From NCBI GenBank assembly GCA_947446285.1, contig CANFGH010000011.1, positions 1 to 48,140 on the forward strand: 48,140 bases of DNA. The letters are read 5' to 3'. The notes below the pieces were generated by a model. That model had not been told where the DNA came from, did no database searches, and saw nothing but the letters and a program-made list of their open reading frames with translations. The first letter of the stretch is position 1, and each line of letters begins with the position of its first letter. The DNA is from Chloroflexota bacterium. Lineage in GTDB: Bacteria > Chloroflexota > UBA11872 > UBA12225. Positions 4,203 through 47,328 of this stretch are shown here, in pieces. A program made the translations under genes and the position numbers.

Positions 4203-5294
4203 TCAATCGTGGTCGCGCGAAGCCACCCAACCCAGATCAAACCGGGCCAGTACCAGCCGTTCGTAGGGACGTAGTGACCCGGTCTCATAGAAGCACAGGA
4301 TCGAACCGTCGCCGGTCACCGCCAGGTCGCAGTACGCCGCCGGCCCGGGTTCGACGACACGGGAAGCCACCCAACTCCGGGCACCATCCACACTCAGGCG
4401 GATGGTCAAGGTGTCACGTGTCCCGCTCGCCGGATTGGCGAACACCACGACATCCCCAAGCGCGTATCCGTCGAGTTGCCCGATGACATCTGCCTCGGGG
4501 ATCGAGACCGCCGAGGCCTGACAAGTCGGTTCAGGCAAGTCGTCGTCTGCGGCAGCCGGACCGAAGGTCAGACCTCCGTCGAGACTGCGTGCAACGATCC
4601 GTCGGCCACGGCGCGCCTCATCCCGGCAGTTCAGGTACACCCCACCGTCGGCTGTTTCAACTGCCACGCTCTCGTTGGTGCCTTCTGCGTCAACGATCCC
4701 ACCAATCCGCCATGTCGCACCGTGATCATCGGAAATGATGACGTGGGAGTGCCTCGCCTCCGAACCGTCGCGTGGATTGCGACTGCGGTGATCGCACGGG
4801 ATAACGAGCCGCCCAGATCTCAACTGGATCCCGTGGCAGGGGCCAGTCGCGTACCAGGTCCACTCAGGTCGCTTCACCTCGGAAGTGATCTCCACCGGAA
4901 CGGCCCACGTGATGCCATCATCATCGCTGGATGTGACCCAGACCGTCCGCGAATGAAGCCCCTTGCGGATGTCGTCTTCATGGGCGTCGGCCCGGTTGCG
5001 GGTTATGAGAAGCCAGACGGTCCCGGTCGACTGGTCCACGACCGGGGCGGGATTGCCGCATGTCAACCCGATCTGTGCATCCACGACCTGTGACGACGAC
5101 CATGACACCCCCACATCCACACTGCGCCGCAGCAGCAGTTCGATCTCCCCGGCATCCCCAGACCCATGCCGGCGACCCTCGCAGAACGCAAGGATGGTGC
5201 CGACCGTCGTGACGGCAAGCGCGGGAATCCGGTAGGTGTGATACCCGCCGATCCCACCGGTCCAGAGGTCCTGAGTGTCGGGAATGATGGTCAT
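4203..5294 (-). CDS. Sialidase / BNR-repeat glycosidase-like protein (GH33-like)
   Basis: 363 aa six-bladed propeller-type protein. It has the N-terminal YRIP motif with Arg22, a 'GRRHGSGDAGE' stretch that could supply the Asp general acid (D47), and several Asp boxes of the form S-x-D-x-G-x-x-W (RRSVDVGVSW, SSDDDGITW, ISDDHGATW). It has a CRDEARR segment and a final FYE that may provide the Tyr/Glu pair. These are features of exo-alpha-sialidases. There is no signal peptide, so it is predicted cytosolic. That would mean imported oligosaccharides are processed inside the cell. It starts 23 nt after the isomerase pseudogene and ends the minus-strand catabolic run. Some BNR proteins of this type act on other sugars, so sialic acid is not certain. 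Confidence 0.8.
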   Translation of the reverse strand: MTIIPDTQDLWTGGIGGYHTYRIPALAVTTVGTILAFCEGRRHGSGDAGEIELLLRRSVDVGVSWSSSQVVDAQIGLTCGNPAPVVDQSTGTVWLLITRNRADAHEDDIRKGLHSRTVWVTSSDDDGITWAVPVEITSEVKRPEWTWYATGPCHGIQLRSGRLVIPCDHRSRNPRDGSEARHSHVIISDDHGATWRIGGIVDAEGTNESVAVETADGGVYLNCRDEARRGRRIVARSLDGGLTFGPAAADDDLPEPTCQASAVSIPEADVIGQLDGYALGDVVVFANPASGTRDTLTIRLSVDGARSWVASRVVEPGPAAYCDLAVTGDGSILCFYETGSLRPYERLVLARFDLGWVASRDHD

Positions 5295-5317
5295 GCGTCA
5301 GCCCCATGCGGTCCAGA

Positions 5318-6132
5318 TCAGGCGGCAAACAGGGACCGTGCGAATGCCAGGTCCTCGCTCACCAGACGGATCAGCTCAGTTTCATCGGTGTACTCGGCCG
5401 GCAGGCACACGGGCGCGTCATATCCCCGTTGCCTGACCAGCTGCACGACGTCGGGCCATGGCGCCAGTCCACACCGGCCAGCGGTCCAATATGGTGCAAA
5501 CCTCGCGACCGATGCCTCGGGCCCATTGACCTGCTTCCAGATTGCGTTCTTGAGGTTAAGAAGTCGAAGGTGGGGCCAGATGATGTCAACCGCGTGTTCG
5601 GGGATCTCGCCGTTCAGGGCCGTGTGCGCCGGATCCCAGACCGCGCATATCTGATCAGGATCAAACGGCCGGACCAGTTCGCGAAGTCCTAGGGCGTGCG
5701 AGATGTCGTGCTGACTGTGGTTCTGCACGCCGAGCGAAATCCCAGACGCAGCCAGACGGGGCACAGCCGTTTCGAATTGCCGTTGAAGATCGGAAATCCG
5801 TTCGAGGTAGCCAACACCTCGAGGCATCCCGACACAGACGCGCATCAGTCGCGCACCAGTCGCGCGCCACTCGCCGCGCACGCTTCGATCATGCGGTCGG
5901 TCAACGCCTCTGAGAATGACGGTGCAACGGTATCGATCACCACACCGGCATCAGTGAGCACGCGGACTGCCTCGTGTAGCACTGTGCCAACCGCAACTGG
6001 TGTGACCTGGAAACCCGGGCGGACCGGGAGTTCGACACCCCAGAACCCGAGGGATGAGACCGTTTCAGCGAGTTCGGATAGAGACTGATCACGCCATGGC
6101 TTCGTAAAGACCGTGAATCGAGTGTCAGACAA
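5318..6132 (-). pseudogene. Sugar phosphate isomerase/epimerase (TIM barrel), frameshifted
   Basis: Two overlapping frames together encode one xylose-isomerase-like TIM-barrel protein. The first (6132 to 5845) ends ...GARLVRD-stop; the second carries on from RVCVGMPRGVGY to 5318. The intact paralog at 46522 reads straight through this point (IIRICVGVPKGTGY). The frame change falls on an 11-bp tandem duplication at 5844-5865. Removing one unit leaves 804 nt, giving 267 aa against 268 aa in the paralog. Metal-site segments are kept (GVQNHSQHD, AVWDPAHTAL, CLPAEYTDE). It sits third in the Gfo/Idh - dehydrogenase - isomerase cassette. As it stands only a truncated N-terminal third would be made. 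Confidence 0.88.
5844..5865. repeat. 11-bp tandem duplication causing frameshift
   Basis: ATCAGTCGCGC (5844-5854) is followed at once by ACCAGTCGCGC (5855-5865), differing by one base. The length is not a multiple of three, and it lies exactly where the isomerase reading frame switches. Confidence 0.9.
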
Positions 6133-6179
6133 TTCATTATTCTTTGACTGGTCCGGCGCATGACGGACTTGCTAGCTGG

Positions 6180-7193
6180 TCACGCCATCGTGCCGAGGCG
6201 TTCGGCGAGGATTTCATGGCGCAATGGTTCACCCTGGACGAACCGGGTGATCTCATCGGCCATGACCTCACCCATGCGCGAACATGCCTCCCATGACGCA
6301 CCCGCGATATGAGGTGTCAGGAACACGTTGGGAAGCGTACGAAACGGATCATCGGGCGCCAATGGTTCGCGCGGGTAAACGTCCAGGGCCGCGCGGATCC
6401 GCCCCGATCGCAGTTCGGCAAGCAAGGCATCCTGGTCGATTGCGCCGGCGCGTGCCGAGTTGACCAGCAGGGCGCCATTACGAAGGCGTGCGAGTTGTGG
6501 TGCCCCGATCAACTGGTCGGTCTCCGGTGTGGTTGGAACGTGGTTTGAAAGCACGTCGGCCCACGCGCACAAGTCATCGATTGCCGAAACCTTCCGTACC
6601 CCAAGTGACGACGCCGATTCGTCAGAAAGGTACGGATCGTAGACCCCAATCTCACACCCGAATGGTGCGAGCAAGCGCAGGAATGCCCGGGCTGTCTGGC
6701 TCATCGCGATCAGGCCCACCCGCTTCCCCGCGAGTTCGTTTCCGTGGCCCTCATGCGACGATTTCCACGCACCGGCACGCATGCTCTCGTGGAATGACAT
6801 CGCCATACGCAACCCGGAAAGTGTCGCCATCAGGCACCACTCGCCGACCGCCGCTGCAATCACGACCGCTCCGTGCGTGACCCGGACGCCTCGTGCGAAC
6901 ACCTCCGGGGTGACAAACCCCTTGACCGTGCCGGCACCGTGCGCAATCAAACGCAACGCTGGCAACGTGTCAAGCAATGTAGTGTCAAAGGTTGGCATGC
7001 CCCAGGTCCCGAGGACGTTGGACACATCGTCGCGTTCAACCCGCCACGTGTCAGGGCTCCGGGAGGAAGCGTCGTCGGAAAGCCAGCGGATCGAGGCAAC
7101 GGCGTCAATCCGGGCCACGGTGGCCGGATGGAAGAGTTGTTCACGGAGAATCCCGTTGACCAGGCATAGGACGGTCGGCTTGGCATCGGACAT
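6180..7193 (-). CDS. D-2-hydroxyacid dehydrogenase-family protein with glycine-less Rossmann loop
   Basis: 337 aa, two-domain fold of the D-2-hydroxyacid dehydrogenase family. The catalytic residues are kept: R248 (VNSARAG), E276 (YPREPL) and H295 (TPHIAG). D186 after the second strand suggests NAD. The dinucleotide loop, normally G-x-G-x-x-G, reads A163-M-S165-Q-T-A168 in VGLIAMSQTARAF, so all three glycines are replaced by Ala/Ser/Ala. The paralog at 45464 has the same replacement, so it is a subfamily trait and not an error. Start at 7193 was chosen by comparison with that paralog; in-frame starts at 7205 and 7235 exist. It is the only intact gene of the three-gene cassette on this strand. 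Confidence 0.82.
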   Translation of the reverse strand: MSDAKPTVLCLVNGILREQLFHPATVARIDAVASIRWLSDDASSRSPDTWRVERDDVSNVLGTWGMPTFDTTLLDTLPALRLIAHGAGTVKGFVTPEVFARGVRVTHGAVVIAAAVGEWCLMATLSGLRMAMSFHESMRAGAWKSSHEGHGNELAGKRVGLIAMSQTARAFLRLLAPFGCEIGVYDPYLSDESASSLGVRKVSAIDDLCAWADVLSNHVPTTPETDQLIGAPQLARLRNGALLVNSARAGAIDQDALLAELRSGRIRAALDVYPREPLAPDDPFRTLPNVFLTPHIAGASWEACSRMGEVMADEITRFVQGEPLRHEILAERLGTMA

Positions 7194-7271
7194 CGGTGTT
7201 TGCATCCCCTTCAGGCCAAACGATCCTGCACGCACGGTGCGCGTTGGGTCGACCTGACCCGGGCTCTCAGC

Positions 7272-8293
7272 TCAGTCGGTCGCGAGGAGCGCCTGTGCGA
7301 GGATCCTCTCGGCGACTTCCATGGTCTTGATGGCATCGCGGAACGGTGATGAAGTCAGGTGTCGCCCGGTCAACAGGGAATCGATGAACTCGCGATCCTT
7401 CGCGAGGAACCCGCGCGCGTCTATCGTCCTGTCGGTTCCCGAGACCGCTTGCGCCTCGTAATGCACACCCTCTCCCGGCGCGGTGGTTGCGTCGAAGTAG
7501 TGCATGACACCCTCCTGATCTCCCTCGGCGCACGCTCCCGGGGCATGCATCTCGATCCGGAAGATCCGGCGTCCCGAGGCCCAGTTGCACAGGATGATCC
7601 CCTGGGAACCATTCGCGAACGTCAGTGAGGCGTGAATCCAGTTGATATCCGGCGTGCCAATCCGACGGCACCGGCTTTCGACGGCAACGACCTCGGCGCC
7701 ACTCTGGGTGCCACGGCCATCGCCGCATAGCCACCTGACAGTGTCGATCGCGTGGACGCAGTCGTCCATCATCCGGTCACGCGCACCGATCATCGGTTCG
7801 GGACCGGGCTTGTAGAACTGGACCATCGCTTGTAGAACTGGACCATCGCTTGGGTGATTGGACCGGAGGCGCGGACACGTTCCCGAAGCGTCACGAGAAT
7901 CGGAGCGGCCCGCCTTTGGAAGCCGACCTGGGTCACGACACTGGCGGTCTCGGCGAGGTGCGTCAGGATCCGCGCCTGATGCATCGAAAGACCAAGCGGC
8001 TTCTCGATCGCCAACGGGAGACCTTGCTGGAGGCACCAGACCCAGATGTCGTACATCAGGTGGGGTTGCCCGATCACAAAGACTCCGTCCGGCCTCATCT
8101 CCGACACCATGCGCCGGTAGTCCGAGTAGCGTCCCGCAATCCCATACCGGTCAGCCGTGGACGTCAGGGCGGCATCGTCAATGTCGGCAACCGCGACGAT
8201 GTCGACGTCAGGGAATGACGCCAATGACGGGTAGTGGACAGAGTTGGCGAGGCGGCCCGCACCGACCATCGCAATCCGGACCCGTTCCTTCAT
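7272..8293 (-). pseudogene. Gfo/Idh/MocA-family oxidoreductase, frameshifted
   Basis: Two overlapping frames together encode a NAD(P)-dependent sugar oxidoreductase. The N-terminal frame (from 8293) has the Rossmann motif GAGRLA and the EKP motif, then runs into KRWSSSTSPVPNR-stop. The second frame carries on from VQFYKPGPEP, including the MMDDCVHAIDTVRW catalytic segment, to 7272. The break coincides with an exact 20-bp tandem duplication at 7808-7852. Removing one 20-bp unit gives 1002 nt, the same length as the intact paralog at 44414. The start at 8293 (MKERVRIAMVGAG) matches the paralog start. It lies 34 nt after the NHL-repeat gene and heads the cassette. As read, the product would lose its C-terminal substrate domain. 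Confidence 0.92.
7808..7852. repeat. 20-bp tandem duplication causing frameshift
   Basis: TGTAGAACTGGACCATCGCT occurs twice in a row without mismatch (7811-7830 and 7831-7850), and the 20-bp period extends over 7808-7852 (2.25 copies). Twenty is not a multiple of three, so it shifts the Gfo/Idh frame. Confidence 0.97.
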
Positions 8294-8327
8294 CGAACTA
8301 TTCACTCCGATCCATCCACCCGACCCG

Positions 8328-9446
8328 TCAATCCAGGTCAATCCGGACGATACGGTGGTTCCCGGTATCCGCAACGAAGATCGTGTCGTCACCATCGACG
8401 GCGATCCCGTGAGGCGAGGAGAACTCGCCGATGCCGTTGCCCGCGGTCGCTTCGAAGGCGTCCATCCCTGGTACGCATGGCACCCCACACGGTCGGCCCC
8501 ACGACGCCAAGGGACGTCCATCCGGATCAACCTTCTGGACACGGTTCAAACCGGCATCAGCCACATGGATCGCACCATCCCGACCGAACGCGACGCCGGT
8601 AGGACGCATGAACTCGTCCGATCCAGTCCCCAATCGCCCAATGATGAGCGACGCGTAAGGAGAGATCGGCGCGATTTGATCGGGGGTTTGGTTTGCGAGG
8701 CCACCGACGATAATCTCAAGTCTGCTGTCGCCATCGTCGTCCATCGCATAGCGGTCGGTCTCGGCAATTGCCATCCTCCCGGTCCGGTCTACTGCCAGGC
8801 CAGCGATCTCGTACACATGCACACCATCGCTTGCGATCTTGGCAATCAAGCCGGTAACCGCTCCGTCGGGAGCCTGACAACAGATCCAGCTCGAAAGGAC
8901 CCGGATCAGGCCGTTCGACAGGTGAGTCCACGACGTGTAGATCGTGCCGTCAGGGCCAATGGCAATGGCCTGCGGTCCCTGAAGAACCATTCCAGCGGTC
9001 ACGAACGGCGCGACTTCCTTCTCGAAATCGGTCCCACGCGCGATCCCCGGGGCTGCCCACGCGTCCCGGAAACGACCTGAGGGCGAGAAGCGTTGAACGC
9101 GCTTGGTACCCCCAGTCTCGGTCACGTACACATCGCCGGTCGCATCCACAGCGATCCCGGAGATGTGGATGAATTCGCCCGGGCCGGACCCTGGACGTCC
9201 CCAGCTCGACAGGAAGATCCCACCTCGGGAAAACCGTTGGATGCGTTCGTTTCCGGTATCGACCACCAGAAGCGATCCTCCGGGTTCAATCGCGAGGGAC
9301 CGCGGCGCAATGAACTGCCCATCGCCACGACCGTGCGATCCCCAAGCAATGACCGGTGCCTGCGATGACCCGGCCTCCGCCCGAGTGGCACCCAGCGCAG
9401 CGATGCCTGCGGCAACGTGCCCAAGCATCCGCCGGGTCAGACGCAT
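8328..9446 (-). CDS. Secreted NHL-repeat beta-propeller protein
   Basis: 372 aa. The N-terminus MRLTRRMLGHVAAG...AEA is an export signal with an Arg pair (R5-R6) as in twin-arginine signals, probably cut after residue 25. The rest is built of NHL-type repeats, seen as 'GIAVD-GD-YV-ETG--RVQRF-P-G' and 'TGNHRIVRID' units, which form a propeller used for binding, sometimes with lyase activity. The ATG at 9446 is chosen over the longer frame from 9488 because it places the signal peptide at the start. It lies 34 nt upstream of the Gfo/Idh pseudogene and is probably co-transcribed with the cassette. No ligand can be deduced. Confidence 0.78.
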   Translation of the reverse strand: MRLTRRMLGHVAAGIAALGATRAEAGSSQAPVIAWGSHGRGDGQFIAPRSLAIEPGGSLLVVDTGNERIQRFSRGGIFLSSWGRPGSGPGEFIHISGIAVDATGDVYVTETGGTKRVQRFSPSGRFRDAWAAPGIARGTDFEKEVAPFVTAGMVLQGPQAIAIGPDGTIYTSWTHLSNGLIRVLSSWICCQAPDGAVTGLIAKIASDGVHVYEIAGLAVDRTGRMAIAETDRYAMDDDGDSRLEIIVGGLANQTPDQIAPISPYASLIIGRLGTGSDEFMRPTGVAFGRDGAIHVADAGLNRVQKVDPDGRPLASWGRPCGVPCVPGMDAFEATAGNGIGEFSSPHGIAVDGDDTIFVADTGNHRIVRIDLD

Positions 9447-9503
9447 GATCGGCCGCCAAACCATTCGACCGTCGCACGTGGCCGCCAATCCTGCCCCATA
9501 CGG

Positions 9504-10451
9504 TCAGTACCCCAGTGACTTGTCGACCAAGTTGATGAGCGGTTCGCCGGTGATGTAGCGACGGAGATTTTCGGCAAAGATGTCGACCCCACGTTGACGC
9601 GTGAACGGGGTCGATGCGCCGTTGTGCGGTGTCACAAGAGTGTTCGGCGCCGACCAGAACGGGCTATCTGCGGGCAACGGTTCCACCGAATGAGCGTCCA
9701 GGCCGGCACCCGCAATCCAACCCTCGTTCAAGGCGCGAAGGAGGGCATCGTCATCGGCGATTCCGCCTCGTGAGAAACAGATGTAATATGCCGTCCGCTT
9801 CATCGCGCGGAACTCGGCCTCGCCCAGCATGCCGGTGGTCTCTGGCGTCCGAGGTGCGGTCACCACAATGAAGTCCGACTCCCCCAGGAACTCGTGGAGT
9901 TGGTCCTGTCGGTACAGGTGATCCACATTTGGCGTCGGTTGGGGCGTCCGGCGAATCCCGACGACCCGCATGTGAAATGCCTTGCACTTGAACGCGAGGT
10001 CGACCCCGGAATATCCGAGACCGATGATCCCGCAAGTGAGGCCGCTCAGTTCCGGGTGGCTCCATGCATCCCATCGGCGCTCCGCCTGCGCACGCATCCA
10101 CCGGGGCATGTCGCGGTTGAGCATCAGCATGAGCATCATCGCGTGTTCGGCGAGCGGGATCGCGCCGTTGCTCTTGCACGACGTCGCGATCACCGGACTT
10201 TCGATGAATGCTGGATACATCAGTTCATTCGGACCGGCGGCCCAACTCTGGACCCACTTGAGCCGGGTCGCCCTCTCGAGTGCAGTTTCCGACACGTGCC
10301 CTGCGACGACATCGGCTTCGTGAATCACCGCTTCGAGATCCTCGCGCCGCGAGAAATAGCGAACGTCAGCCGTTGGCGATGCCCCACGGATCTGCGCCAG
10401 CTGCGGGTCGGTCACGGCACCGGAGATCAGTACAACAAGGCTCGTAGTCAT
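9504..10451 (-). CDS. D-2-hydroxyacid dehydrogenase
   Basis: 315 aa. Canonical family member with Rossmann motif GLGYSG (144-149), catalytic R228 (SRGG), E257 (SVEPLP) and H276 (TPHNGAS). After the second Rossmann strand the sequence is GIRR (165-168) with no acidic residue, which in this family points to NADP(H). It should interconvert a 2-keto acid and a D-2-hydroxy acid. A Shine-Dalgarno-like AAAGGAAAA lies just before the ATG at 10451. It ends 57 nt before the NHL gene and may open that operon. It is distinct from the glycine-less paralogs at 6180 and 45464. Confidence 0.87.
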   Translation of the reverse strand: MTTSLVVLISGAVTDPQLAQIRGASPTADVRYFSRREDLEAVIHEADVVAGHVSETALERATRLKWVQSWAAGPNELMYPAFIESPVIATSCKSNGAIPLAEHAMMLMLMLNRDMPRWMRAQAERRWDAWSHPELSGLTCGIIGLGYSGVDLAFKCKAFHMRVVGIRRTPQPTPNVDHLYRQDQLHEFLGESDFIVVTAPRTPETTGMLGEAEFRAMKRTAYYICFSRGGIADDDALLRALNEGWIAGAGLDAHSVEPLPADSPFWSAPNTLVTPHNGASTPFTRQRGVDIFAENLRRYITGEPLINLVDKSLGY

Positions 10452-10537
10452 CTTTTTTCCTTTGCCACTGCCGGACCGTAATGTACTCGGGTACGGACTA
10501 CCGGTGTTCGGCGCGGTCGCAACCCAAGAGTGACGGG

Positions 10538-11002
10538 TCAGTCATCCGCGGGATCCAGATGAACCCTCGACCGGATCAAGGCACGGCTTCGGTAGTCAAT
10601 GAGATCCTCGATGCGCGAGGAAATCTGGGATCGCACGCGCGCCGAGATCAAGGCGTCGTCGATCCAGTGATCGATCCGTGCATCAGTGACCGCATCGCTG
10701 GCCAGTTCCATTTCGGAGGCCGACATCGCGACAATCCGCGCATCGATGCGCTCGTCAATCCGTGCGTCGACATGGTCATGTAGGAGGTCGCGAATGCGGC
10801 CGGCGACGCGTTCGTCCGTCATCCATTCCTCAATCCGGGCAATCGTGATCGAATCGGTCATCGCGACCAAACGGGCACGAACGCCCGGATCGACCCTCGC
10901 CTCGATCCGGGCCATGGTCATCGCACGGACCAACGCGTCATCAATCCAGTAGTCAACCACGGCGGCAACCCGAGACTCAGCGCGGGTTCTGGCGTCACTC
11001 AT
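10538..11002 (-). CDS. Repeat-rich Arg/Ile/Asp helical protein, unknown function
   Basis: 154 aa with strongly biased composition: runs of 'ARIDxRIDARI' and two related blocks, VDYWIDDALVRAMTMARI near the N-terminus and IDHWIDDALISARVRSQI near the C-terminus. The pattern predicts amphipathic helices or a coiled coil with internal duplication. There is no signal, membrane segment or catalytic motif. The start at 11002 is chosen because TATCTT lies exactly 6 nt upstream and no Shine-Dalgarno site is present. It lies between the DUF-type gene at 11044 and the dehydrogenase at 10451. I do not recognise the family. A low-complexity spurious frame is possible but unlikely given the upstream signal. 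Confidence 0.6.
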   Translation of the reverse strand: MSDARTRAESRVAAVVDYWIDDALVRAMTMARIEARVDPGVRARLVAMTDSITIARIEEWMTDERVAGRIRDLLHDHVDARIDERIDARIVAMSASEMELASDAVTDARIDHWIDDALISARVRSQISSRIEDLIDYRSRALIRSRVHLDPADD

Positions 11003-11008
11003 GGGGTG

Positions 11009-11014
11009 AAGATA
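11009..11014 (-). promoter_or_regulatory. -10 hexamer of leaderless repeat-protein gene
   Basis: TATCTT on the minus strand ends 6 nt before the ATG at 11002; no Shine-Dalgarno sequence is present. Confidence 0.5.
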
Positions 11015-11043
11015 GCTGGTCGGGCGGAACCATTTGCCGGTGT

Positions 11044-11499
11044 TCAGGTGCCCGCACGGTACCGCGCACGATTGGTCCGAGGACCGTGTTCCAGTTCGCA
11101 CCGTCCGAGCGCCTCCAGCGGCGGCGGAACGTACACGGCAAACCGTCCGCGGTACCCATTCCGAAGGCCATACCACCCACCAATAGAGTTCGAAGGATCG
11201 CGGGCCCATGCCTCCACACTGCCCTCGGCCGGCGTGCGTTGTTCGTCGGCCCCACCGAGGTCGACCCAATCTCCGCGCTCCATCAACATCTCTTGGAGGT
11301 CATCGACGCATCGCGCATCGTAATGCAGGACCGTCTTGCCGACGGTACACACCAGGATCTTGCGCCCGGCAACCTCCCCGAGGTGCATTGTGTATGCCGA
11401 CGTCCCCGGCGCCGTCGTGAGATGCCACGGGTTCCCCGCATCACATGTCTCGTTACCCGGAAACGACCCTGACGGCTTTTCGCTTGACACCCCGTCCAT
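11044..11499 (-). CDS. Conserved hypothetical protein, resembles DUF6855-type
   Basis: 151 aa. The segments VCTVGKTVLHYDARCVDDL, WVDLGGADEQ, EGSVEAWARDPSN, GGWYGLRNGYRGRFAVYVPP and a C-terminal 'LEHGPRTNR' form a compact conserved pattern that I associate from memory with the DUF6855 family. No biochemical role is known to me. There is no signal peptide. The ATG at 11499 follows GAGGTGAGGG within about 10 nt; the frame also extends upstream into the heparinase gene, which I reject as coding. It lies between the heparinase-like lyase and the repeat-rich protein. Confidence 0.7.
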   Translation of the reverse strand: MDGVSSEKPSGSFPGNETCDAGNPWHLTTAPGTSAYTMHLGEVAGRKILVCTVGKTVLHYDARCVDDLQEMLMERGDWVDLGGADEQRTPAEGSVEAWARDPSNSIGGWYGLRNGYRGRFAVYVPPPLEALGRCELEHGPRTNRARYRAGT

Positions 11500-11584
11500 C
11501 ACGCCACCCTCACCTCGGCGATCGTCCAGACAGGCCGTGGGGTGATCGCCCAACACCGAATTGCCGCAGCATACACCTGGGGAC

Positions 11585-13582
11585 TTACCCGTGCACCGAA
11601 CACGCGAGTTTCCATTCGCCGTTCGAAAGTGCGCCCAGAGCGTGCAACCGGACACGCCAGATGCGGTCCCCCCAAACCCGCTGGAGACGGGGATCAGTGG
11701 TGGAAATCTCCTCGATTTCAGGTTCAAGCAGCAACCAGACGCCATCGCCCCCGCGTCCGTGGTGCACCGCCGAGTAGGAAACGGAAAGCGCGCGACCGGG
11801 TGAGGAAATCTGGAGCAGGCCCGGAGCGACCGCGACCGGCAACCCAGACACCATCAGCGACAGCGAAAGCCGGTGGGGGGGCTCAGACGCCAGGTCCCAC
11901 GTGTCAGAGATGGTGATGACGCCGTCAGGCGAGGTGACCGGGTCACGGTCGAGGGTAATCGCGCGCCACCAGTCGCGAATTCCTGCCTCCTCGGGGTACG
12001 CCCCTGCCAGGTTCATGCGCATCGTCACCCGGTCAGGTGCCACATCACACCCAACCACACGCGCGCCGAACTGCCGTCCGGGCGATTGGTCAAACCCGTC
12101 GACCGACGGCAGGTTGTGGTAACCGCTCTGCATCGTCCAGATGGAATAGCGTTCGGGACCGAAGGTCTTGGCCGAGTAGGTCTCAACCCCGACGTCAACA
12201 AGGACCGGATGGCCGTCGACCGCAATAATGAACGAACCCACATCATTGTGATTGTGGGAGTCACCGTTGTGGCCGGCACGTGCGGAGACGAAGAGCCCCC
12301 TCGGATCGCCAGCCCGGGCACGCGCAACGAGAACCTGCACGTCACGCAGCCACGCGTCCCCGATCAGTGGCGGGCGCGCTTCGATAGACGCGTTCCCGAG
12401 TTCCGAAGCCCCAAAGAGTGCCGGCAACGTCCGCCCGATTGAGAGGATGTTGTCGCCAATCACTGGTTTCCGTTGGGGCCGCTGGTCGGCTTCGTCCACG
12501 CGACCACGAACGACGTTCCGTGAGGCGGCATACGCACCGTGGGCCGACAGCGCAGAATCTCCTGTCCGGAGGCCGAACCGCCACGCAAGGTCGGCATCGA
12601 CAGTTACCCGGGCTACCCCGTCGGCATAGTTGACGTACCAGTCACCGGAGACGTGCGTCCTCGGCAGGTACAACCCGATCTCACGGACAAGCGGCAGATC
12701 CCAAACGGCCAGCACCCCGTCACTAGCCAGATGAAGCCATTCGAGCGCCTCGAACAGGCTTGCGCCGGCACGCTGCCAGTAGACCGTTCCCTCATCACAA
12801 CCGCCATCGGCGCCGTAACCATTCAGGAAGACATCCATCCCGGCGATGCATCTGGACAGCAGCTCAAGCCGAACTTCCGGATCGGTCTCGATGAGCAGGA
12901 TGCATGCGATCAAGTTGGAATGGATCCACGGGTTCCAGTTGTTGTCGGGCCGGTTCCCGCAGCGTAACCATGGCCACCAGGCGACATTCCGGTACGGGTC
13001 GATCAGTCTCGCGCGGATCTCGTGCTCGATACGGTCGGTCACAATGGCCGTGTGGGGGTCGGCGTCGATGCGCGCGCCGAGCAGCGATCGCGTCCACGCG
13101 AGCAACGCACCGGTCTCGGCGGCAAAGAGGTCGACGACCGGATAGGTGACCTCTGGCAGGCCAGCATGAGGGTGGAGGGGCGCAAAACTGTGGGGAGGAA
13201 TCCCCCAGAAACTCTCCTCGCAGATCGCCCAGATGCCGTTTATGACCGCATCGAGGAAGCGGCCTTGCCCTTCAGCGCACTCGGCCAGGACCAGATGGTG
13301 CAGGGCATGGCGGCGCGTGAAGTGCACTTCCTCAAACCGCGAACGGTTGCCACTGCGTCGGAACTCCAGAAAGGTCGTTGCCCTGACAGGTGCCCAGTCA
13401 TAGTCGTGCCAAGCGTCACCCTGGCCAACGAGTTCCTGGCGCTGGGTCTCGGGAAGCGCGTTCCAAGCCTCGCGGCTCTCCACGGGCGGGAACGGTTGCC
13501 AGTCGCCAGGGAGTGACAAGTGCGCGCGCAGCCGGTTGGGCGTCAACCGTTCGGAGAGGATGTCCCGGGTTTCCTTGGCCAT
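11585..13582 (-). CDS. Heparinase II/III-family polysaccharide lyase
   Basis: 665 aa. N-terminal alpha/alpha toroid with 'NNWNPWIHSN' (214-223) and 'EGTVYWQRA' (264-272, candidate catalytic Tyr268). The C-terminal beta-sandwich carries the signature HNGDSHNHNDVGSF (438-451) and 'VLVDVGVETYS'. Members cleave uronic-acid-containing polysaccharides such as heparin or alginate oligomers by beta-elimination. There is no signal peptide, so it probably acts on imported oligosaccharides in the cytosol. GATAAT lies 6 nt before the ATG at 13582, with no Shine-Dalgarno site. Neighbouring dehydratase, SelA-like, dehydrogenase and sialidase genes fit breakdown of acidic glycans. The exact substrate is unknown. 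Confidence 0.87.
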   Translation of the reverse strand: MAKETRDILSERLTPNRLRAHLSLPGDWQPFPPVESREAWNALPETQRQELVGQGDAWHDYDWAPVRATTFLEFRRSGNRSRFEEVHFTRRHALHHLVLAECAEGQGRFLDAVINGIWAICEESFWGIPPHSFAPLHPHAGLPEVTYPVVDLFAAETGALLAWTRSLLGARIDADPHTAIVTDRIEHEIRARLIDPYRNVAWWPWLRCGNRPDNNWNPWIHSNLIACILLIETDPEVRLELLSRCIAGMDVFLNGYGADGGCDEGTVYWQRAGASLFEALEWLHLASDGVLAVWDLPLVREIGLYLPRTHVSGDWYVNYADGVARVTVDADLAWRFGLRTGDSALSAHGAYAASRNVVRGRVDEADQRPQRKPVIGDNILSIGRTLPALFGASELGNASIEARPPLIGDAWLRDVQVLVARARAGDPRGLFVSARAGHNGDSHNHNDVGSFIIAVDGHPVLVDVGVETYSAKTFGPERYSIWTMQSGYHNLPSVDGFDQSPGRQFGARVVGCDVAPDRVTMRMNLAGAYPEEAGIRDWWRAITLDRDPVTSPDGVITISDTWDLASEPPHRLSLSLMVSGLPVAVAPGLLQISSPGRALSVSYSAVHHGRGGDGVWLLLEPEIEEISTTDPRLQRVWGDRIWRVRLHALGALSNGEWKLACSVHG

Positions 13583-13588
13583 GCCGAG

Positions 13589-13594
13589 ATTATC
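13589..13594 (-). promoter_or_regulatory. -10 hexamer of leaderless heparinase-like gene
   Basis: GATAAT on the minus strand ends 6 nt before the ATG at 13582, with no Shine-Dalgarno sequence between. Confidence 0.5.
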
Positions 13595-13657
13595 CCCCGC
13601 AGTCCCGGGGCCAACCGTGGCGCACCATTGAACATCCGGGCGCCCCGAAGACGATGC

Positions 13658-14872
13658 TCATGCCGAACGCAGGATCCGGCGGAGGACATCGGCAATGACC
13701 GATGCCTCGCCGGGCTTGAGGGTCTGTGGATTGACGTGGAACCCGTCGTCACCCTCGTTCCAGACCGCAATCCGGGGACGGTTTCCCATCAGGCGAACTT
13801 GCATCTGGTCGCGCGTGAGTGGTGCCTCGGGCCCGAATGTCACCAGGGCACGTGGCATCGGTTGGCCCGACTCCGATGGCCAGACCCGGGTTGCAACCAC
13901 TCCCCGGATGCCGTCCACGCCATCGATCACGGTCCGGACGTCGGCTTCGTAGCGCCGGGCAAGCGCGGTGAAGTCGGTCGCGAGGTACCACTCGACCGCG
14001 GCGACGATCCCGCAGATCTCCTCCTTGCCAACCTTCATCGGGCGCCCGATCAGTGGATTCGGGCTGCCCTGGCGCGTAATCGAATCGATCAGGTCTGGCC
14101 GGCCCAGCAGAAGCCCGGTCGGGGCCGGGCCACACAAACCCTTGCCTCCGGAGAAGATCGCAAGGTCCACCCCTAGCCCGGCAACGCTTTCGGGCGCACT
14201 CTCGATGATCCCCGCCTCATGCAGGGCTTGCGCCCACGGGACAGGGCCGCCATTGCCAGAGAAATGCCAGAGGTTCTCGACGGCAGGGAGCTGCGATGCG
14301 GCGTCAACGATGACCGGAACCCCATGCGCATGCGCAATCTTCACGACCTCACCGATTGGCAAGGCACCATACGTATGCGGCCCATTCGGCACCATCAGCA
14401 CGGCCGCGACGGATCCATCAAGGACCCGCACGAGTTCTTCCTGGGAGGTGCGCACCCCGCGCAATGATTCCTCACGGGTCGGGCCAATCTCCACAAACGT
14501 GATCCCGGTCGACCGCACCGAAAAGTCATACGAGAATCGTTCACAACGGTGAATCACCACCTTGGTGGGAACACCGGGAACCGTTCCCGGGTGCGGGAAG
14601 GCGGCCATGACCGCCGGGTCGTCCCCGCTGATGCACGCAGCCGTGGCAAGGACAAGACCGGCGGTAGCACTTGAGCAGATGTAGGCCGCGTCATTGCGCG
14701 TCAGCTGTGCGATGCGGCGACCGGCAGCAGCAAGCAACTCGTCGATCAGGACGTACGACCCACTCGCCTCGCGCATCGCGGCGATCACCGGCTCCGGCAT
14801 CAGCGAACCGCTCACCCGGGTTGCCGTCCCGAACCCGTTGATCACGGGTACTACGCCCAGTGCCTCGTACAT
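13658..14872 (-). CDS. SelA-like PLP-dependent enzyme (ammonia-lyase/aldolase type)
   Basis: 404 aa, fold type I PLP enzyme. It shows the opening 'VVPVINGFGTATRVSG', phosphate-binding region SSATAGL (67-73), D190 in VIVDAASQLP, and the Schiff-base K244 in IFSGGKGLCGPAPTG. These match the SelA-like family that includes D-glucosaminate-6-phosphate ammonia-lyase, not true selenocysteine synthase; no selB or tRNA-Sec lies nearby. GGAGG stands 8 nt before the ATG at 14872. As the first gene of the minus-strand catabolic block it may act on an amino-sugar acid released from glycans, which is inference from context. Confidence 0.82.
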   Translation of the reverse strand: MYEALGVVPVINGFGTATRVSGSLMPEPVIAAMREASGSYVLIDELLAAAGRRIAQLTRNDAAYICSSATAGLVLATAACISGDDPAVMAAFPHPGTVPGVPTKVVIHRCERFSYDFSVRSTGITFVEIGPTREESLRGVRTSQEELVRVLDGSVAAVLMVPNGPHTYGALPIGEVVKIAHAHGVPVIVDAASQLPAVENLWHFSGNGGPVPWAQALHEAGIIESAPESVAGLGVDLAIFSGGKGLCGPAPTGLLLGRPDLIDSITRQGSPNPLIGRPMKVGKEEICGIVAAVEWYLATDFTALARRYEADVRTVIDGVDGIRGVVATRVWPSESGQPMPRALVTFGPEAPLTRDQMQVRLMGNRPRIAVWNEGDDGFHVNPQTLKPGEASVIADVLRRILRSA

Positions 14873-15040
14873 CTATCCGCCCTCCGACTTTGACGAGTTG
14901 CGTCCCAAGAACGCCAGCGTAGGGCAAATCAGGTCCGGACGGTCGGCGGGATGTTGCGTGCCCGCTGCCCCCCTGACCCTATGTGGCTTGGCAGCAACCA
15001 CGAACTAGCCTGAATGGGCGCGTCACACCACCCTGCATGC

Positions 15041-15256
15041 CCTGCCGGCGAGGGCGCCGGCGTTCCCAGGAAGGACACCACCACGAACCACGTAGCTTCC
15101 CGACTTTCGCCGCATCGGGCTTGGGAGCCACGCAAAAACTGACAAGATCATTCAGGGAACTTCGTCACCCTGGGAGCGCCGGCGTCCTCGCCGGCCCGTC
15201 TCTCGATTCCGAGGGTCTTAACCAGGCCGGAAACACCGCCAAACTATCGACGCACG
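15041..15256. repeat. 216-bp repeat element, copy A, with terminal-type inverted repeats
   Basis: First of two direct copies (period 238 bp) in a stretch without genes (14873-15647). Inside it, 15044-15067 and 15172-15195 form a 24-bp inverted repeat with two mismatches, built on GCCGGCGAGG...CGCCGGCG. The core between the arms is shared with copy B and includes CGTAGCTTCCCGACTTTCGC. No transposase or ORF of its own is present. Confidence 0.85.
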
Positions 15257-15278
15257 AAAAACCCCACCGGGCACATCC

Positions 15279-15494
15279 CCTGCCGGCGAGGGCGCCGGCG
15301 CTCCCGGGCAGGACACCACCACAAACCACGTAGCTTCCCGACTTTCGCCGCATCGGGCTTGGGAGCCAAGCAAGAACCCACAAGATCAGTCAGGGCAAAT
15401 CGGCACCCTGGGAGCGCCGGCGCCCTCGCCGGCCCATCTCTCCATTCCGGCCAGCCTCTCCCATCTGGAAACACCGCCAAACCGTCCATGCACG
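15279..15494. repeat. 216-bp repeat element, copy B, with perfect inverted repeats
   Basis: Second copy of the element. Here the arms 15282-15305 and 15410-15433 are perfect 24-bp inverted repeats separated by 104 bp. The region up to 15647 contains only this pair of elements and a short leader for the next gene. It looks like a non-autonomous, dispersed palindromic repeat. Confidence 0.88.
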
Positions 15495-15647
15495 CCACAA
15501 CCGAACCGCAGACCACTGCTGGGCGCTCCCATGACGACTAGCACCACGAAGGGATCCACCACACGTTGCAGACGCCCTCGCCCTACTGCATCGTTTACGG
15601 TTGATGAACACCGAGCCCCGCGCGTCCCACTCCGAAGGAAAACCACC

Positions 15648-16814
15648 GTGAACATCGCCCGCCTTGCAATCGCGGTTACCATGTCGCTTCTTCCCGCGAC
15701 CGCCCTCGCGTCCCCGGCGCACACGCTGGCCCGTGGGGCCGTGGTAGCCCTCACCGGCACCGACCACATATGGGTGGCCGACGACGAAGGAACCTTGCAC
15801 TGGGCCGGAGACACTCGGGCCCTTGCCGACCGGTTTGTGGATTGGGGCGCACGGCAGGAACTCTCGGCGACCGAGATTGCAAGCCTGCCCAAGGGCGATC
15901 CGTGGCTTTCGGCCGGTTTGGTGAAACTTGGGACACCGATCTACCTGGCCAAATGGGAGGCGACTGACGCCGCGCCCCAGCTGCTGCATATCCAGGCAAT
16001 CGACGACGTGGCACTCTTCGGCATCACCGGATCGAACTACGGCACTTTCGTCATGGAAGAAGATGCCTGGAAAGCGCGGTTCGGTTTCGAGGCCGCTTCA
16101 CTCAAGACCGCCGAACTTCCCTCCGCAACCGGGTCACCCGGCGCCAAGACGAATGGGCCAACGCCCGCATCGGCACCTTCGCCCGCGCCAGTCGCAACTC
16201 CAGTCATACCTCCAGCGCCGCCAACGCCGTCCGGTCAGTCCTTCCTGAACCAGGACCTGACAGGCCGAACATTCAACAACGCCGTACTAGTCCGCGCGAA
16301 CTTCACCGGTGCACGGCTCAATGGCGTGCGCCTCTCGAACACCGACCTGACTGGCGCAGTCATGACCAATGCACGCATGGCGAACACGATCCTTGCGGGC
16401 ACCGACCTGATCGATGCGTACCTGGTCGGTGCAGATCTGTCCGGGGCGACCTTCACCGACGTGAACTTCCGCCGGGTCATCCTGGCCGGAACCAACCTCT
16501 CGGGCGCAATCCTCCAGTACGCCGACTTGAACTCCGTCAACCTGTCAGGCGCCACCCTGGACGGTTCGTACCTCTACAAGGCGAACTTCTCCAATGCCAC
16601 CATGGTCGGTGCAAGCCTCAAGGGCATCCATGCGTCCGATGTGAACTTCACGGGCGCCAATCTCGCCGGCGCAAACCTGCGTGACGCCAAGCTGACCGGG
16701 GCGATCCTATCGAGTGCCAATCTGTCTGGCGCCGACCTGACCGGGGCCGACCTTCGTGACGCAAAGTTCGTCGGGACGAACCTCGACGGCGTGATCGGTT
16801 ATGTCAAACCGTAG
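15648..16814 (+). CDS. Exported pentapeptide-repeat protein with N-terminal sensor-like domain
   Basis: 388 aa. GTG start at 15648 with AAGGA about 8 nt upstream; the longer in-frame ATG at 15531 would bury the signal peptide. Residues 1-22 (MNIARLAIAVTMSLLPATALAS) are a signal peptide. Residues ~28-150 form a compact domain with HIWVADDEG, LHWAGDTRALA and GDPWLSAGL, a type I associate with Chloroflexota exported proteins. A Pro/Ala/Ser linker follows (~160-195), then about 190 residues of A(D/N)LxG pentapeptide repeats forming a right-handed beta-helix. The protein ends GVIGYVKP, like the pentapeptide protein at 37521 (GVKGYVPLPV). Partner unknown. Confidence 0.85.
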   Translation: MNIARLAIAVTMSLLPATALASPAHTLARGAVVALTGTDHIWVADDEGTLHWAGDTRALADRFVDWGARQELSATEIASLPKGDPWLSAGLVKLGTPIYLAKWEATDAAPQLLHIQAIDDVALFGITGSNYGTFVMEEDAWKARFGFEAASLKTAELPSATGSPGAKTNGPTPASAPSPAPVATPVIPPAPPTPSGQSFLNQDLTGRTFNNAVLVRANFTGARLNGVRLSNTDLTGAVMTNARMANTILAGTDLIDAYLVGADLSGATFTDVNFRRVILAGTNLSGAILQYADLNSVNLSGATLDGSYLYKANFSNATMVGASLKGIHASDVNFTGANLAGANLRDAKLTGAILSSANLSGADLTGADLRDAKFVGTNLDGVIGYVKP

Positions 16815-16850
16815 TCAACGGCGCTGCTGCAAACCGTAAATCTCTCACCG

Positions 16851-16891
16851 GATGGTGCGCGCGCGACACACTGTCCCACGCGCGCACCATC
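16851..16891. terminator. Bidirectional terminator, 13-bp perfect stem
   Basis: GATGGTGCGCGCG (16851-16863) pairs perfectly with CGCGCGCACCATC (16879-16891) between the pentapeptide gene (ends 16814, +) and the phosphotransferase gene (ends 16928, -). Confidence 0.72.
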
Positions 16892-16927
16892 GACGGAATC
16901 CCCGTCGCCCGTGTCTGGTCCCCGTTG

Positions 16928-17947
16928 CTACCGGCCGACCGACGCAAGTGCATCACGCGCACTATCGAGCAGGACGGCGCGATAGTCGCCGGTTACCCAT
17001 TCGTTGCGCGCAATGCGCAAGAGCGTCGTGGCGAGATGGAACGGGATGCGTGCGCAGATATGCGCGAAGGCATCGTTACGATCCGGAAAGTGGCAGGCGT
17101 ACTCCCACAGGAAGTGCCCGATGAACGGTTCGGCTGCCCGGCGCGAGCCCCGGTTGCGGAGGAAGGCATGCTGCAGTTCCCCGGCAATCCGTCCGACATC
17201 GTATGACCGGTCACCGAAGTGACTGCGTTCGAAGTCGATACCGCCAACCCACATGCCATCCCTGAACAGGAAGTTCGCTGGGGTCGCATCACCATGGAGG
17301 AGTACCTTGCGATCCTCCCACATTGGCCCAAAGCCCATCCACCGTTCCCCGAGTGCCCGGAATTCTCGGTCGGCCGATTCCCCAAGATGCCCGAGCTCGC
17401 GTAACGTCCGCGCCAGCTTCCGCAGGTACTTCACATCCGTGGCAAAAGCCACCGTTTCCTCACGTGCCGTCCGGTTGTGCATCGTGGCCAGGAAGTACGC
17501 CAGCGCCGTCAGACGGGCATGCAGGTCGCCAGACGACTGCTTGCCCTTTGCCACAGCATCGAGGACCACACCAAGAGTCTCCCCCTCGAGATGCTCAAGG
17601 AAGAGTGCCCCGCCGATCTCCGGGACGGCCGCAAATGCCCGCATCACTTGATGGGGATGCCCGTCGAGTCCGATCTCACGCATCCGCTCGATTGCCCGGA
17701 ACTCTCGCAACATGCGATTCGTGATCGCCCCAGATGCGGGGACGCCCGGGCGACCATAGAACTTGCCGATCACCCTGGCGCCACTCTCACGGTCCTCGTA
17801 CTCGAAGACCGCATTCGATCCACCAAGGCGGTACGTCCGGATGCGGGCACGGACGCCGTTCACCCCGAGCTGGGGGAAGACGTGGCGGACAAGGACAGAA
17901 TGAGCCGGATCCGATTTCGGCAAGGGACCTAGGCGTTCGCGTATCAC
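16928..17947 (-). CDS. Aminoglycoside phosphotransferase-family kinase
   Basis: 339 aa. Kinase-like fold with nucleotide loop 'LGGSNAV' (41-47), Lys62 (VIGKFYG), catalytic loop LLHGDATPANFLF (H218-D220, N225) and the metal-binding GGIDFE (D238). The family phosphorylates small molecules (sugars, choline, antibiotics) or acts on other substrates; the substrate is not evident. The GTG start at 17947 has no Shine-Dalgarno site but TACATT lies exactly 6 nt upstream. It stands alone, convergent with the pentapeptide gene. Resistance function should not be assumed. Confidence 0.8.
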   Translation of the reverse strand: MIRERLGPLPKSDPAHSVLVRHVFPQLGVNGVRARIRTYRLGGSNAVFEYEDRESGARVIGKFYGRPGVPASGAITNRMLREFRAIERMREIGLDGHPHQVMRAFAAVPEIGGALFLEHLEGETLGVVLDAVAKGKQSSGDLHARLTALAYFLATMHNRTAREETVAFATDVKYLRKLARTLRELGHLGESADREFRALGERWMGFGPMWEDRKVLLHGDATPANFLFRDGMWVGGIDFERSHFGDRSYDVGRIAGELQHAFLRNRGSRRAAEPFIGHFLWEYACHFPDRNDAFAHICARIPFHLATTLLRIARNEWVTGDYRAVLLDSARDALASVGR

Positions 17948-17953
17948 CGTTCG

Positions 17954-17959
17954 AATGTA
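17954..17959 (-). promoter_or_regulatory. -10 hexamer of leaderless phosphotransferase gene
   Basis: TACATT on the minus strand ends 6 nt before the GTG start at 17947, with no Shine-Dalgarno site. Confidence 0.5.
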
Positions 17960-18111
17960 CCTGACACGCTCCTTAACGAATGGGATGATTCGGATTTCGG
18001 AGGCGAAAGTTGCGTTCCCGGCGTTCCCGGTGGGCCAGGGGCGGCGACGCCACCACTAGGCCCATCGCCCCCGATCACTTGCCCTCTGATTGACCCACCC
18101 GGTTCGCGACC

Positions 18112-19056: not shown

Positions 19057-19363
19057 GACACTCCTGCCTTCCTCAACTCACGCGCTGCACACGGCGCGCC
19101 GAACGTTTCCCCGCGTCCGGTACCCATGCCCGGGGCACGTTAGCGGGGCGGGCGTAATCTACCCCATGGCAGCGTCCATCCCGTCATCCCACCAAGTGAT
19201 GGCCAGCCCCACGGGACTGTCGCCCATTCCTTTACAAAAAGTTGGCCGGACGTCGGCAACCACGCGAACCGATTTGACATCGCCTTAGCAATGGTTGCCG
19301 ATACTCCTGTTGTCGGTCGGGTGGAGCGGATCCACCTCCGAACATCACACGGGAGACAGGCAC
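19057..19363. other. Divergent intergenic region
   Basis: 307 bp between the dehydrogenase start (19056, -) and the secreted-protein start (19364, +), so it should hold both promoters. A perfect TTGACA is at 19274-19279 (+), but I see no good -10 at 16-18 bp; GATACT follows at 20 bp. No gene seen. Confidence 0.4.
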
Positions 19364-19987: not shown

Positions 19988-20015
19988 GACACTTCCACGC
20001 AGATCCCATCCAACT

Positions 20016-44413: not shown

Positions 44414-45415
44414 ATGAAGGACGAAGTGCGGGTTGCCATGATTGGCGCCGGTCGCATGGCGAATTCGGTGCACTATCCATCCCTCGCGTCCTTCCCGGAC
44501 GCGCGGATTGTCGGCATAAGCGACCTTGACCCCATCGCCCTCACTCGGACTGCCGACCGGTTCGGAATCGAAGAGCGTCACCATGACTATCGAGAAATGG
44601 TTCAACGCGTCTCACCTGATGGGGTGTACGTGATTGGTCAACCACACTTGATGTATGACATCTGGACTTGGTGTCTGCAGCAAGGGTTGCCTCTCTATAT
44701 AGAGAAGCCAATGGGTCTGACCATTCATCAGGCCCGGATGCTGGTACACCTTGCGGAAACCGCGGGCGTAGTGACCCAAGTGAGCCACCAGCGGCGCACA
44801 AGTCCACTCCTGGTTTCGCTGCGCGAACAAGTGCGCGCGACTGGAGAGGTCACCCAAGCGATGGTCCAGTTTTACAAGCCTGGCCCTTCAGCCATGACGG
44901 GTGCGCGCGACCGGATGATGGATGACTGCGTCCACGTCATCGACACAGTCCGCTGGCTCTGCGGGGGAGGCTCCGGCAGCAGCAGTGGCGCCGATGTCAT
45001 CCGCGTGGAGAGCAGGTGCCGGCGAATCGGGACCCCGGACATCAACTGGGTGCACGCCACCTTGGAGTTTGCGAACGGTGCAATTGGCTTCGTGCAGTGC
45101 AACTGGGCTAGTGGTCGACGCATCTTCAGGGTTGAGATGCACTCACCCGGAGCAACTGCTGAAGGGGACCAGGAAGCGATGATGTCATTCCACTCAGCCG
45201 CTGAGAGGGGAGGTGGGTCGCAGGAGTTTCACGCGCACACGGTCGCCGGAAGCGCTGAGACATTCATTTCCGGGGGATTCCAGGCAAAAAACCGGGAGTT
45301 CATCGAATCGCTCAAGACTGGACGGGACGTTACCTCGTCACCTTTTCGCGATGCGGTCAAGACGATGGAGGTCGCCGAGATGATCCTTGCCCAAGCTCTC
45401 CTCGCGGGGATCTGA
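44414..45415 (+). CDS. Gfo/Idh/MocA-family oxidoreductase (intact cassette copy)
   Basis: 333 aa. N-terminal Rossmann fold with GAGRMA (11-16), the EKP motif (97-99, lysine in catalysis) and the segment DDCVHVIDTVRW with H174, which with D170 fits the family's catalytic D-x-x-x-H. It oxidises or reduces a sugar, cyclitol or sugar acid with NAD(P). It is the intact counterpart of the pseudogene at 7272-8293: identical order in the operon, almost the same N-terminus (NSVHYPSLASFPD in both) and the same length once one repeat unit is removed there. No clear Shine-Dalgarno site. Substrate unknown. Confidence 0.92.
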   Translation: MKDEVRVAMIGAGRMANSVHYPSLASFPDARIVGISDLDPIALTRTADRFGIEERHHDYREMVQRVSPDGVYVIGQPHLMYDIWTWCLQQGLPLYIEKPMGLTIHQARMLVHLAETAGVVTQVSHQRRTSPLLVSLREQVRATGEVTQAMVQFYKPGPSAMTGARDRMMDDCVHVIDTVRWLCGGGSGSSSGADVIRVESRCRRIGTPDINWVHATLEFANGAIGFVQCNWASGRRIFRVEMHSPGATAEGDQEAMMSFHSAAERGGGSQEFHAHTVAGSAETFISGGFQAKNREFIESLKTGRDVTSSPFRDAVKTMEVAEMILAQALLAGI

Positions 45416-45463
45416 CACCATGCCAGCAACTTCACGCGACCAAGGATGCGAGTGCTCGAATTG

Positions 45464-46471
45464 ATGGGAAAGCCAAACGTCCTTTGCCTGCTTGTCCCGC
45501 CCCTTCGAGACCACCTCCTTCCGCCCGAGACCGTGCAGCGTCTGGAAGAGGCAGCCGAAGTCCGATGGCTGCCACACGGAGCGGTTTCCGGCAAGCCACA
45601 GACTTGGGAAACCGAACGGGGGGATGTGAACGTCATCCTCGGGAGCTGGGGCATGCCTCGGTTTGACGACGCGCTTCTCAGCACCTTGCCCAACCTTGAA
45701 CTCGTAGCCCATGGTGCCGGTTCAGTGAAGCCATTCGTGACACCCTCGTTCTTTGAACGGGGCATTCGGGTGACTCACGGTGCCAGCGTCATCGCGCAGT
45801 CCGTCGGTGAATGGTGCCTCATGGCAGCCTTGGTTGGCCTGCGCCGTGCCGTAGGTTTCCACGAGGTCATGCGCGGTGATGGGTGGAAAAGCGCGCAGGA
45901 AAACCATGGCGACGAACTCGCCAGGAAACGCATCGGGCTGCTCGCGATGAGCCAGACGGCCCGTGCGTTCCATCGTCTTTTGCAACCCTTTGACTGCGAC
46001 ATCCGTGTGTATGACCCATACCTCAGTGAAAGTGAAGCCTCCAATCTGGGGGTTTCCCGGGAGACGTCAATCGATGCACTCTGCGGTTGGGCAGACATCA
46101 TTTCCAACCACGTCCCATCCACTCCCGAGACCGCGAACCTGATCGGGCCGAGCCAACTCGCGCGGATGCACGACGGTGCGCTGATCATCAACTCGGCACG
46201 ACCCGCAGCCATCGACTACCCCGCCCTCATATCGGAATTGCGGTCCGGTCGGCTACGGGCTGCGCTAGATGTGTTCCCCGAGGAACCGGTCATCCCCGGC
46301 GACCCCGTAAGACAACTGCCCAACGTCCTGGTGACACCTCATATCGCAGGTGCCACGTGGGATGGACGGGCACGACTGGGCGCGACCATGGTCGATGAGA
46401 TCGTCCGTTTTGCCTCTGGCCAACCACTGAAACATGAGGTCCGTCCGGACCGTCTGTCGACAATGGCCTAG
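45464..46471 (+). CDS. D-2-hydroxyacid dehydrogenase-family protein with glycine-less Rossmann loop (intact cassette copy)
   Basis: 335 aa. Same family as the protein at 6180: catalytic Arg (INSARPAAID), Glu (FPEEPV) and His (TPHIAGAT) are kept, and Asp after strand 2 (VYDPYL). The nucleotide loop again reads AMSQTA in IGLLAMSQTARAF where G-x-G-x-x-G is expected. Both cassette copies share it, so NAD binding must differ or the protein may no longer be a redox enzyme. Start at 45464 is chosen because it matches the paralog (MGKPNVLCL against SDAKPTVLCL); an ATG at 45446 is possible. It follows the Gfo/Idh gene by 48 bp. Confidence 0.85.
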   Translation: MGKPNVLCLLVPPLRDHLLPPETVQRLEEAAEVRWLPHGAVSGKPQTWETERGDVNVILGSWGMPRFDDALLSTLPNLELVAHGAGSVKPFVTPSFFERGIRVTHGASVIAQSVGEWCLMAALVGLRRAVGFHEVMRGDGWKSAQENHGDELARKRIGLLAMSQTARAFHRLLQPFDCDIRVYDPYLSESEASNLGVSRETSIDALCGWADIISNHVPSTPETANLIGPSQLARMHDGALIINSARPAAIDYPALISELRSGRLRAALDVFPEEPVIPGDPVRQLPNVLVTPHIAGATWDGRARLGATMVDEIVRFASGQPLKHEVRPDRLSTMA

Positions 46472-46521
46472 GGCGTCGTCCAAAAAAGTTGCGCAACGAC
46501 GGGCGCGAACGAGGGATCACC

Positions 46522-47328
46522 ATGACTGACACCAAATTCACCGTTTTCACCAAGCCGTGGCGCTCCCACTCTCTTGAGCATCTCGGAGAGCTCGTCGCAC
46601 GCCTCGGCTTCTGGGGTGTCGAACTGCCAATCCGGCCAGGCTTCCAAGTCGAGCCGGAGTATGTCACGGCACAGTTGCCGAATGCAGTTAGGATCCTTGG
46701 AAAGTCGGGCGTCACCATCCATTCAGTGTCTCCACCAATGAGGGCAACCATAACTCCGGAATTGGTGAATGCATGTGCGGATGTTGATGTTGGAATAATC
46801 AGAATTTGCGTTGGAGTTCCCAAGGGGACAGGGTATTTTCAACGCATTGCCGAAGTCCAGAAGGAATTCCACGCACTCCTTCCGGTCTTGGAGAAGAGCG
46901 GTGTCGCAATTGGGGTTCAGAACCACAATGGGCATGATCTCTCTCATGCGATGGGTTTGCGCGAATTGTTGAACCCGTTTGATCCGAGACAGATCTGCGC
47001 GGTCTGGGATCCTGCGCACACGGCGCTCAGCGGCGAGATTCCCGAACACGCAGCGGAAATAATCTGGCCCCACCTCAGAATGGTCAACCTGAAAAACGCC
47101 TACTGGAGGCGCTTAAATGGCCCTGAGTCACCCGCCGCCAAGTATGGCGTCCACTGGACGAGCGGTCGTCAAGGGTTGGCACCATGGCGGGAAATCGTGG
47201 AGATCGTACGTGCGCGCGGATACAACGCTCCTGTTTGCCTGCCGGCAGAATACTCAGACGAGACTGACCTTGAACGATTGATCTCAGATGATCTGGAGTT
47301 TGCACAGTCGCTGTTCGACGTCGTCTGA
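46522..47328 (+). CDS. Sugar phosphate isomerase/epimerase, TIM barrel (intact cassette copy)
   Basis: 268 aa xylose-isomerase-like TIM barrel. Metal and substrate segments: RICVGVPKGTGY, GVQNHNGHDLSHAMG, ICAVWDPAHTAL, HLRMVNLKNAYW and VCLPAEYSDET. Family members isomerise or epimerise sugars or keto-inositols with a divalent metal. It is the intact counterpart of the pseudogene at 5318-6132. GAGGG stands 7 nt before the ATG at 46522. It is third in the operon, after the dehydrogenase (50 bp). With the other two it forms a repeated pathway module whose substrate is not known. Confidence 0.9.
   Translation: MTDTKFTVFTKPWRSHSLEHLGELVARLGFWGVELPIRPGFQVEPEYVTAQLPNAVRILGKSGVTIHSVSPPMRATITPELVNACADVDVGIIRICVGVPKGTGYFQRIAEVQKEFHALLPVLEKSGVAIGVQNHNGHDLSHAMGLRELLNPFDPRQICAVWDPAHTALSGEIPEHAAEIIWPHLRMVNLKNAYWRRLNGPESPAAKYGVHWTSGRQGLAPWREIVEIVRARGYNAPVCLPAEYSDETDLERLISDDLEFAQSLFDVV

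Follow-up and report, generated by a model that had tools for sequence, protein, structure and literature searches.

Two short tandem duplications frameshift genes of a Gfo/Idh oxidoreductase cluster in an assembled Chloroflexota genome

Frameshifted bacterial genes that lie beside an intact paralogous copy are generally known as pseudogenised paralogs. The original work on reversible duplications, in fission yeast, is reportedly that of Dan et al., 2021. In the ssp1 gene of this yeast, a short piece of coding sequence between a pair of microhomologies is copied once in tandem, which creates a premature stop, and such microhomology-mediated tandem duplications are reversible (review PMC13207564). 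A literature search for bacterial cases of reversible tandem duplications returned nothing directly on point.

The locus described here, from a lake bacterium, resembles both systems. It lies in the window, by which we mean the whole analysed stretch of 48,140 nucleotides (contig C11 of a 3.42-Mb draft assembly in 217 contigs that is 89% complete). As in ssp1, a coding segment flanked by microhomology is present twice in tandem and the frame ends early, but the locus is bacterial and comes from a single assembled genome, whereas reversion and mixed populations belong to the yeast system. As with pseudogenised bacterial paralogs, the frameshifted gene has an intact paralogous copy; here, however, the Gfo/Idh gene shows no additional signs of decay, and two genes of the cluster carry the same class of mutation. 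The closeness of a Gfo/Idh gene to an AP_endonuc_2 TIM-barrel gene is also seen in loci of Chloroflexota, Latescibacteria, Gemmatimonadetes and Paenibacillus. Our preferred reading, to which we give a probability of about two in three, is that slippage recently inactivated a redundant gene set and that the Gfo/Idh gene is a very recent pseudogene. Barring an assembly error, this looks like ordinary biology, in which a spare set of genes has very recently begun to decay, and it would capture gene loss cleanly at its first step, with two slippage duplications present in a duplicated metabolic gene set before any other damage. Automatic annotation would list false short genes at both sites.

Two frameshifting duplications in one gene cluster

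The initial annotation had reported an exact 20-bp repeat at which the minus-strand reading frame switches, and both statements hold. Tandem Repeats Finder (TRF) gives a period of 20, 2.2 copies and 100% matches at 7808-7852, and the open reading frame (ORF) list and frame readout place the switch at this duplication. Within the 48-kb window, no exact tandem duplication besides this one has a unit longer than 9 bp, and chance is excluded by the 25-base exact self-match at a single fixed offset within 48 kb. The ends of the duplication have a 5-bp microhomology in common (GCTTG, or CAAGC on the coding strand). The N-terminal ORF runs through ITQAMVQFYK into RWSSSTSPVPNR and stops at 7790; across the duplication, the first frame reads ITQAMVQFYKRWSSSTSPVPNR followed by a stop and the second reads QAMVQFYKPGPEPM, the C-terminal frame being open to 7272. 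Removal of one unit yields a gene of 1002 nt (333 aa) with no internal stops, the same length as the intact paralog at 44414-45415, and the QAMVQFYK-PGP junction pointed out in the initial annotation is present in that paralog and, identically, in both same-genus orthologues. The frame is thus disrupted relative to intact orthologues. The product belongs to the Gfo/Idh/MocA family by its Rossmann domain (PF01408, 69 bits in the N-terminal part) and by the family's C-terminal domain (PF22725, sub-threshold at 25.5 bits against a cut-off of 27). Inositol 2-dehydrogenase was the nearest NCBIfam model, at 89.7 bits and far under the cut-off of 355.

A further duplication, overlooked by the initial annotation, lies about 2 kb away in the next-but-one gene of the cluster (Table 1). 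It corresponds to an 11-bp insertion near 5855-5865 that is lacking in the relative G001 and in the TIM-barrel paralog, both of which have intact genes. The TIM-barrel gene has a TTG start codon in this genome and ATG in G001. Between the two broken genes, the D-2-hydroxyacid dehydrogenase gene aligns with that of G001 with no gaps (dN/dS 0.19).

Table 1. Features of the damaged cluster and of the intact paralogous set (positions in the window).
Feature	Position	Strand	Basis or remark
Gfo/Idh/MocA oxidoreductase gene, frameshifted	7272..8293	-	PF01408 N-terminal; orthologues 98% and 95% identical
N-terminal fragment with Rossmann domain and EKP motif, ending in 12 out-of-frame residues and a stop	7790..8293	-	ORF list, Pfam, frame readout
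20-bp exact tandem duplication, 2.25 units, 45 bp	7808..7852		TRF, self-comparison, absent from G001 and G003 orthologues
D-2-hydroxyacid dehydrogenase gene, intact, flanked by both broken genes	6180..7235	-	PF02826, 5e-49
TIM-barrel gene (AP_endonuc_2, sugar isomerase/epimerase-like), frameshifted	5318..6132	-	PF01261 on C-terminal part; alignment with G001 and paralog
11-bp near-exact (10/11) tandem duplication, frameshifts TIM-barrel gene	5839..5869		Microhomology GCGCG, 5 bp
Intact Gfo/Idh/MocA paralog	44414..45415	+	Passes PF01408 and PF22725
Intact 2-hydroxyacid dehydrogenase paralog	45446..46471	+	62% aa identity
Intact TIM-barrel paralog	46489..47328	+	60% aa identity

Derived state, selection and the paralogous set

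Comparison with related genomes, a check that the initial annotation had proposed, used two same-genus draft metagenome genomes, G001 and G003 (matching public records: Thermoflexus isolate ZH-03apr19-133; UBA2235). In both, the Gfo/Idh orthologue is intact and has only one unit, with protein identities of 98% and 95%; the one in UBA2235 is truncated by a contig end 13 codons short of its stop. In nucleotide alignment the 20 bp are an insertion confined to this genome relative to both G001 and G003, and because both relatives, like the paralog, have one unit, the two-unit state is derived. The 11-bp duplication is likewise derived, as judged against one relative (G001) and the paralog. Some 6.8 kb around the cluster could be aligned with G001 at about 89% identity and contains three internal indels: 1 bp in an intergenic region, the 20-bp duplication and the 11-bp insertion. 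Where the sampled sequence could be compared with G001, 65 orthologous ORFs are unbroken.

Relaxed selection is usual for older pseudogenes but is no requirement for new ones, and it was not seen on the broken Gfo/Idh gene. Relative to G001, dN/dS is 0.073 for the single-unit Gfo/Idh gene and 0.10 for the TIM-barrel gene, compared with 0.06 to 0.20 for intact neighbours. Of the lineage-specific codon changes in the Gfo/Idh gene, 10 are synonymous and 2 nonsynonymous in this genome; the corresponding counts for G001 are 11 and 2. With dN/dS no higher than in the neighbours and so few nonsynonymous changes, decay can barely have begun; selection acted on the gene through almost all the time since the lineages separated, and the break is therefore either very recent or not real.

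A second copy of the whole set (Gfo/Idh, 2-hydroxyacid dehydrogenase and TIM barrel) is intact at 44414-47328. Its proteins, only 60-70% identical to those of the damaged cluster (69.8% for the single-unit Gfo/Idh protein), may make the broken set redundant, judging from sequence.

Origin of the duplications and competing explanations

We propose that the polymerase slipped during replication between two CAAGC copies, 20 bp apart on the coding strand, and so would have copied the segment twice. The extra 20 bp would shift the frame into a stop about 12 codons on, past the cofactor-binding domain and ahead of most of the C-terminal domain, with probable loss of activity. The TIM-barrel gene would have been broken by a further slippage event of this type (11 bp, ending in GCGCG), and both losses were probably tolerated because of the intact set at 44414-47328. 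Short direct repeats at the ends of a duplication are the usual signature of slippage. Here, the segment that was copied in tandem has a microhomology of a few base pairs on either side: CAAGC in G001 and in the paralog (in G003, one end matches it at 4 of 5 bases). In G001, GCGCG likewise bounds the 11-bp segment. The derived state unique to this genome, the low dN/dS, the second lesion and the intact paralogous set together support very recent loss of function, which was one of three readings that the initial annotation had offered. The other two fare less well: a slippage switch finds no positive support, and an assembly error appears less likely. Recent slippage loss has against it the state of the draft (217 contigs, 89% complete), the modest identity of the paralogs and the intact middle gene.

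The main rival is an error of assembly or contig joining, in which contig ends with true overlaps of 25 bp (and 16 bp) were merged over just 5 bp so that the segment was doubled, the real genes being intact. The draft nature of the assembly, the lack of other damage in a single-unit gene under purifying selection and the intact relatives would all fit, and we regard such an error as unlikely, though a serious contender. Our screen for tandem duplications that, once removed, leave two frames fused covered 848 kb of this genome (taken from the starts of its larger contigs), as well as 400 kb of G001 and 186 kb of G003. Of three returned from the 848 kb, the 20-bp and 11-bp cluster duplications held up; there is no third confirmed case, which argues against such an error, as do the mismatch in the 11-bp copy, unexpected from pure copying, and the length of the arrays (45 and 31 bp), which would fall below that of an ordinary read. 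The clustering of both lesions in one gene cluster also speaks against error: two events 2 kb apart in 848 kb are expected in about 0.5% of random placements (2 x 2 kb / 848 kb), a figure that concerns just two events and a pattern noticed post hoc, and both points count against the preferred reading. The remaining candidate in this genome, an 11-bp one at L079:3959, was set aside since no gene-like frame was evident and its fused frame resembles a chance ORF; a G001 candidate, L111:10329, sits inside a period-10 array.

Alternatively, two units might be one phase of a reversible on/off switch, with slippage back to one unit giving some cells of the population a working enzyme again. A perfect tandem repeat does allow precise loss, and reversible duplications of this kind have been described (review PMC13207564). 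However, there are two units only, both relatives have a single unit (so that unit number does not vary between these two genomes), the gene is metabolic rather than a surface gene, and restoring the cluster would take two switches. The site is also unremarkable: in the broken Gfo/Idh gene alone, microhomologies of 5 bp or more with a spacing of 8-40 bp form 43 pairs, and the CAAGC pair also occurs in the intact paralog. The site is thus not specially built for switching. Slippage could reverse the duplication, but nothing indicates an evolved switch, and we consider one very improbable. More doubtful still is the broader idea of a bacterial counterpart to fission yeast, in which short microhomology-bounded duplications in two genes would keep a redundant catabolic set of a freshwater Chloroflexota lineage silenced in a reversible way; were reads to show mixed unit numbers, the locus would serve as a natural test case for the reversible silencing of genes in a free-living bacterium. 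We give least credence to the notion that the Gfo/Idh protein is still made, either as one chain, through ribosomal frameshifting, or as two proteins that work together. The frames do overlap and an in-frame ATG lies inside the second unit, but no slippery heptamer was recognisable by eye in the sequence 3' of the duplication, the orthologues are single proteins, and the split leaves the EKP motif on the N-terminal part and the conserved D/H region, which belongs to the second domain, on the other.

Other observations in the window

Identity to G001 is 87-89% over 4556-22893, compared with 93-97% in other aligned parts of both genomes. Scans of the window with Rfam and a tRNA search gave no matches. 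The 48-kb contig holds four genes of the D-2-hydroxyacid dehydrogenase family (6180-7235, 9504-10451, 18112-19056 and 45446-46471). The minus-strand ORF at 10538-11269, for which no Pfam family reached its cut-off, encodes a protein with many repeated motifs of the ARI/RID type (e.g. DARIDERIDARI) and adjoins the gene for a DUF6855 protein (11044-11745). At 40246-40794, a plus-strand frame that is open in G001 (L053) is broken here and the reverse holds for the minus-strand frame; this is possibly a non-coding region or a chance ORF. Finally, a 238-bp unit occurs in two tandem copies (about 86% matching) at 15036-15482, in and near a gene boundary, and the alignment with G001 is interrupted at 14967-15543.
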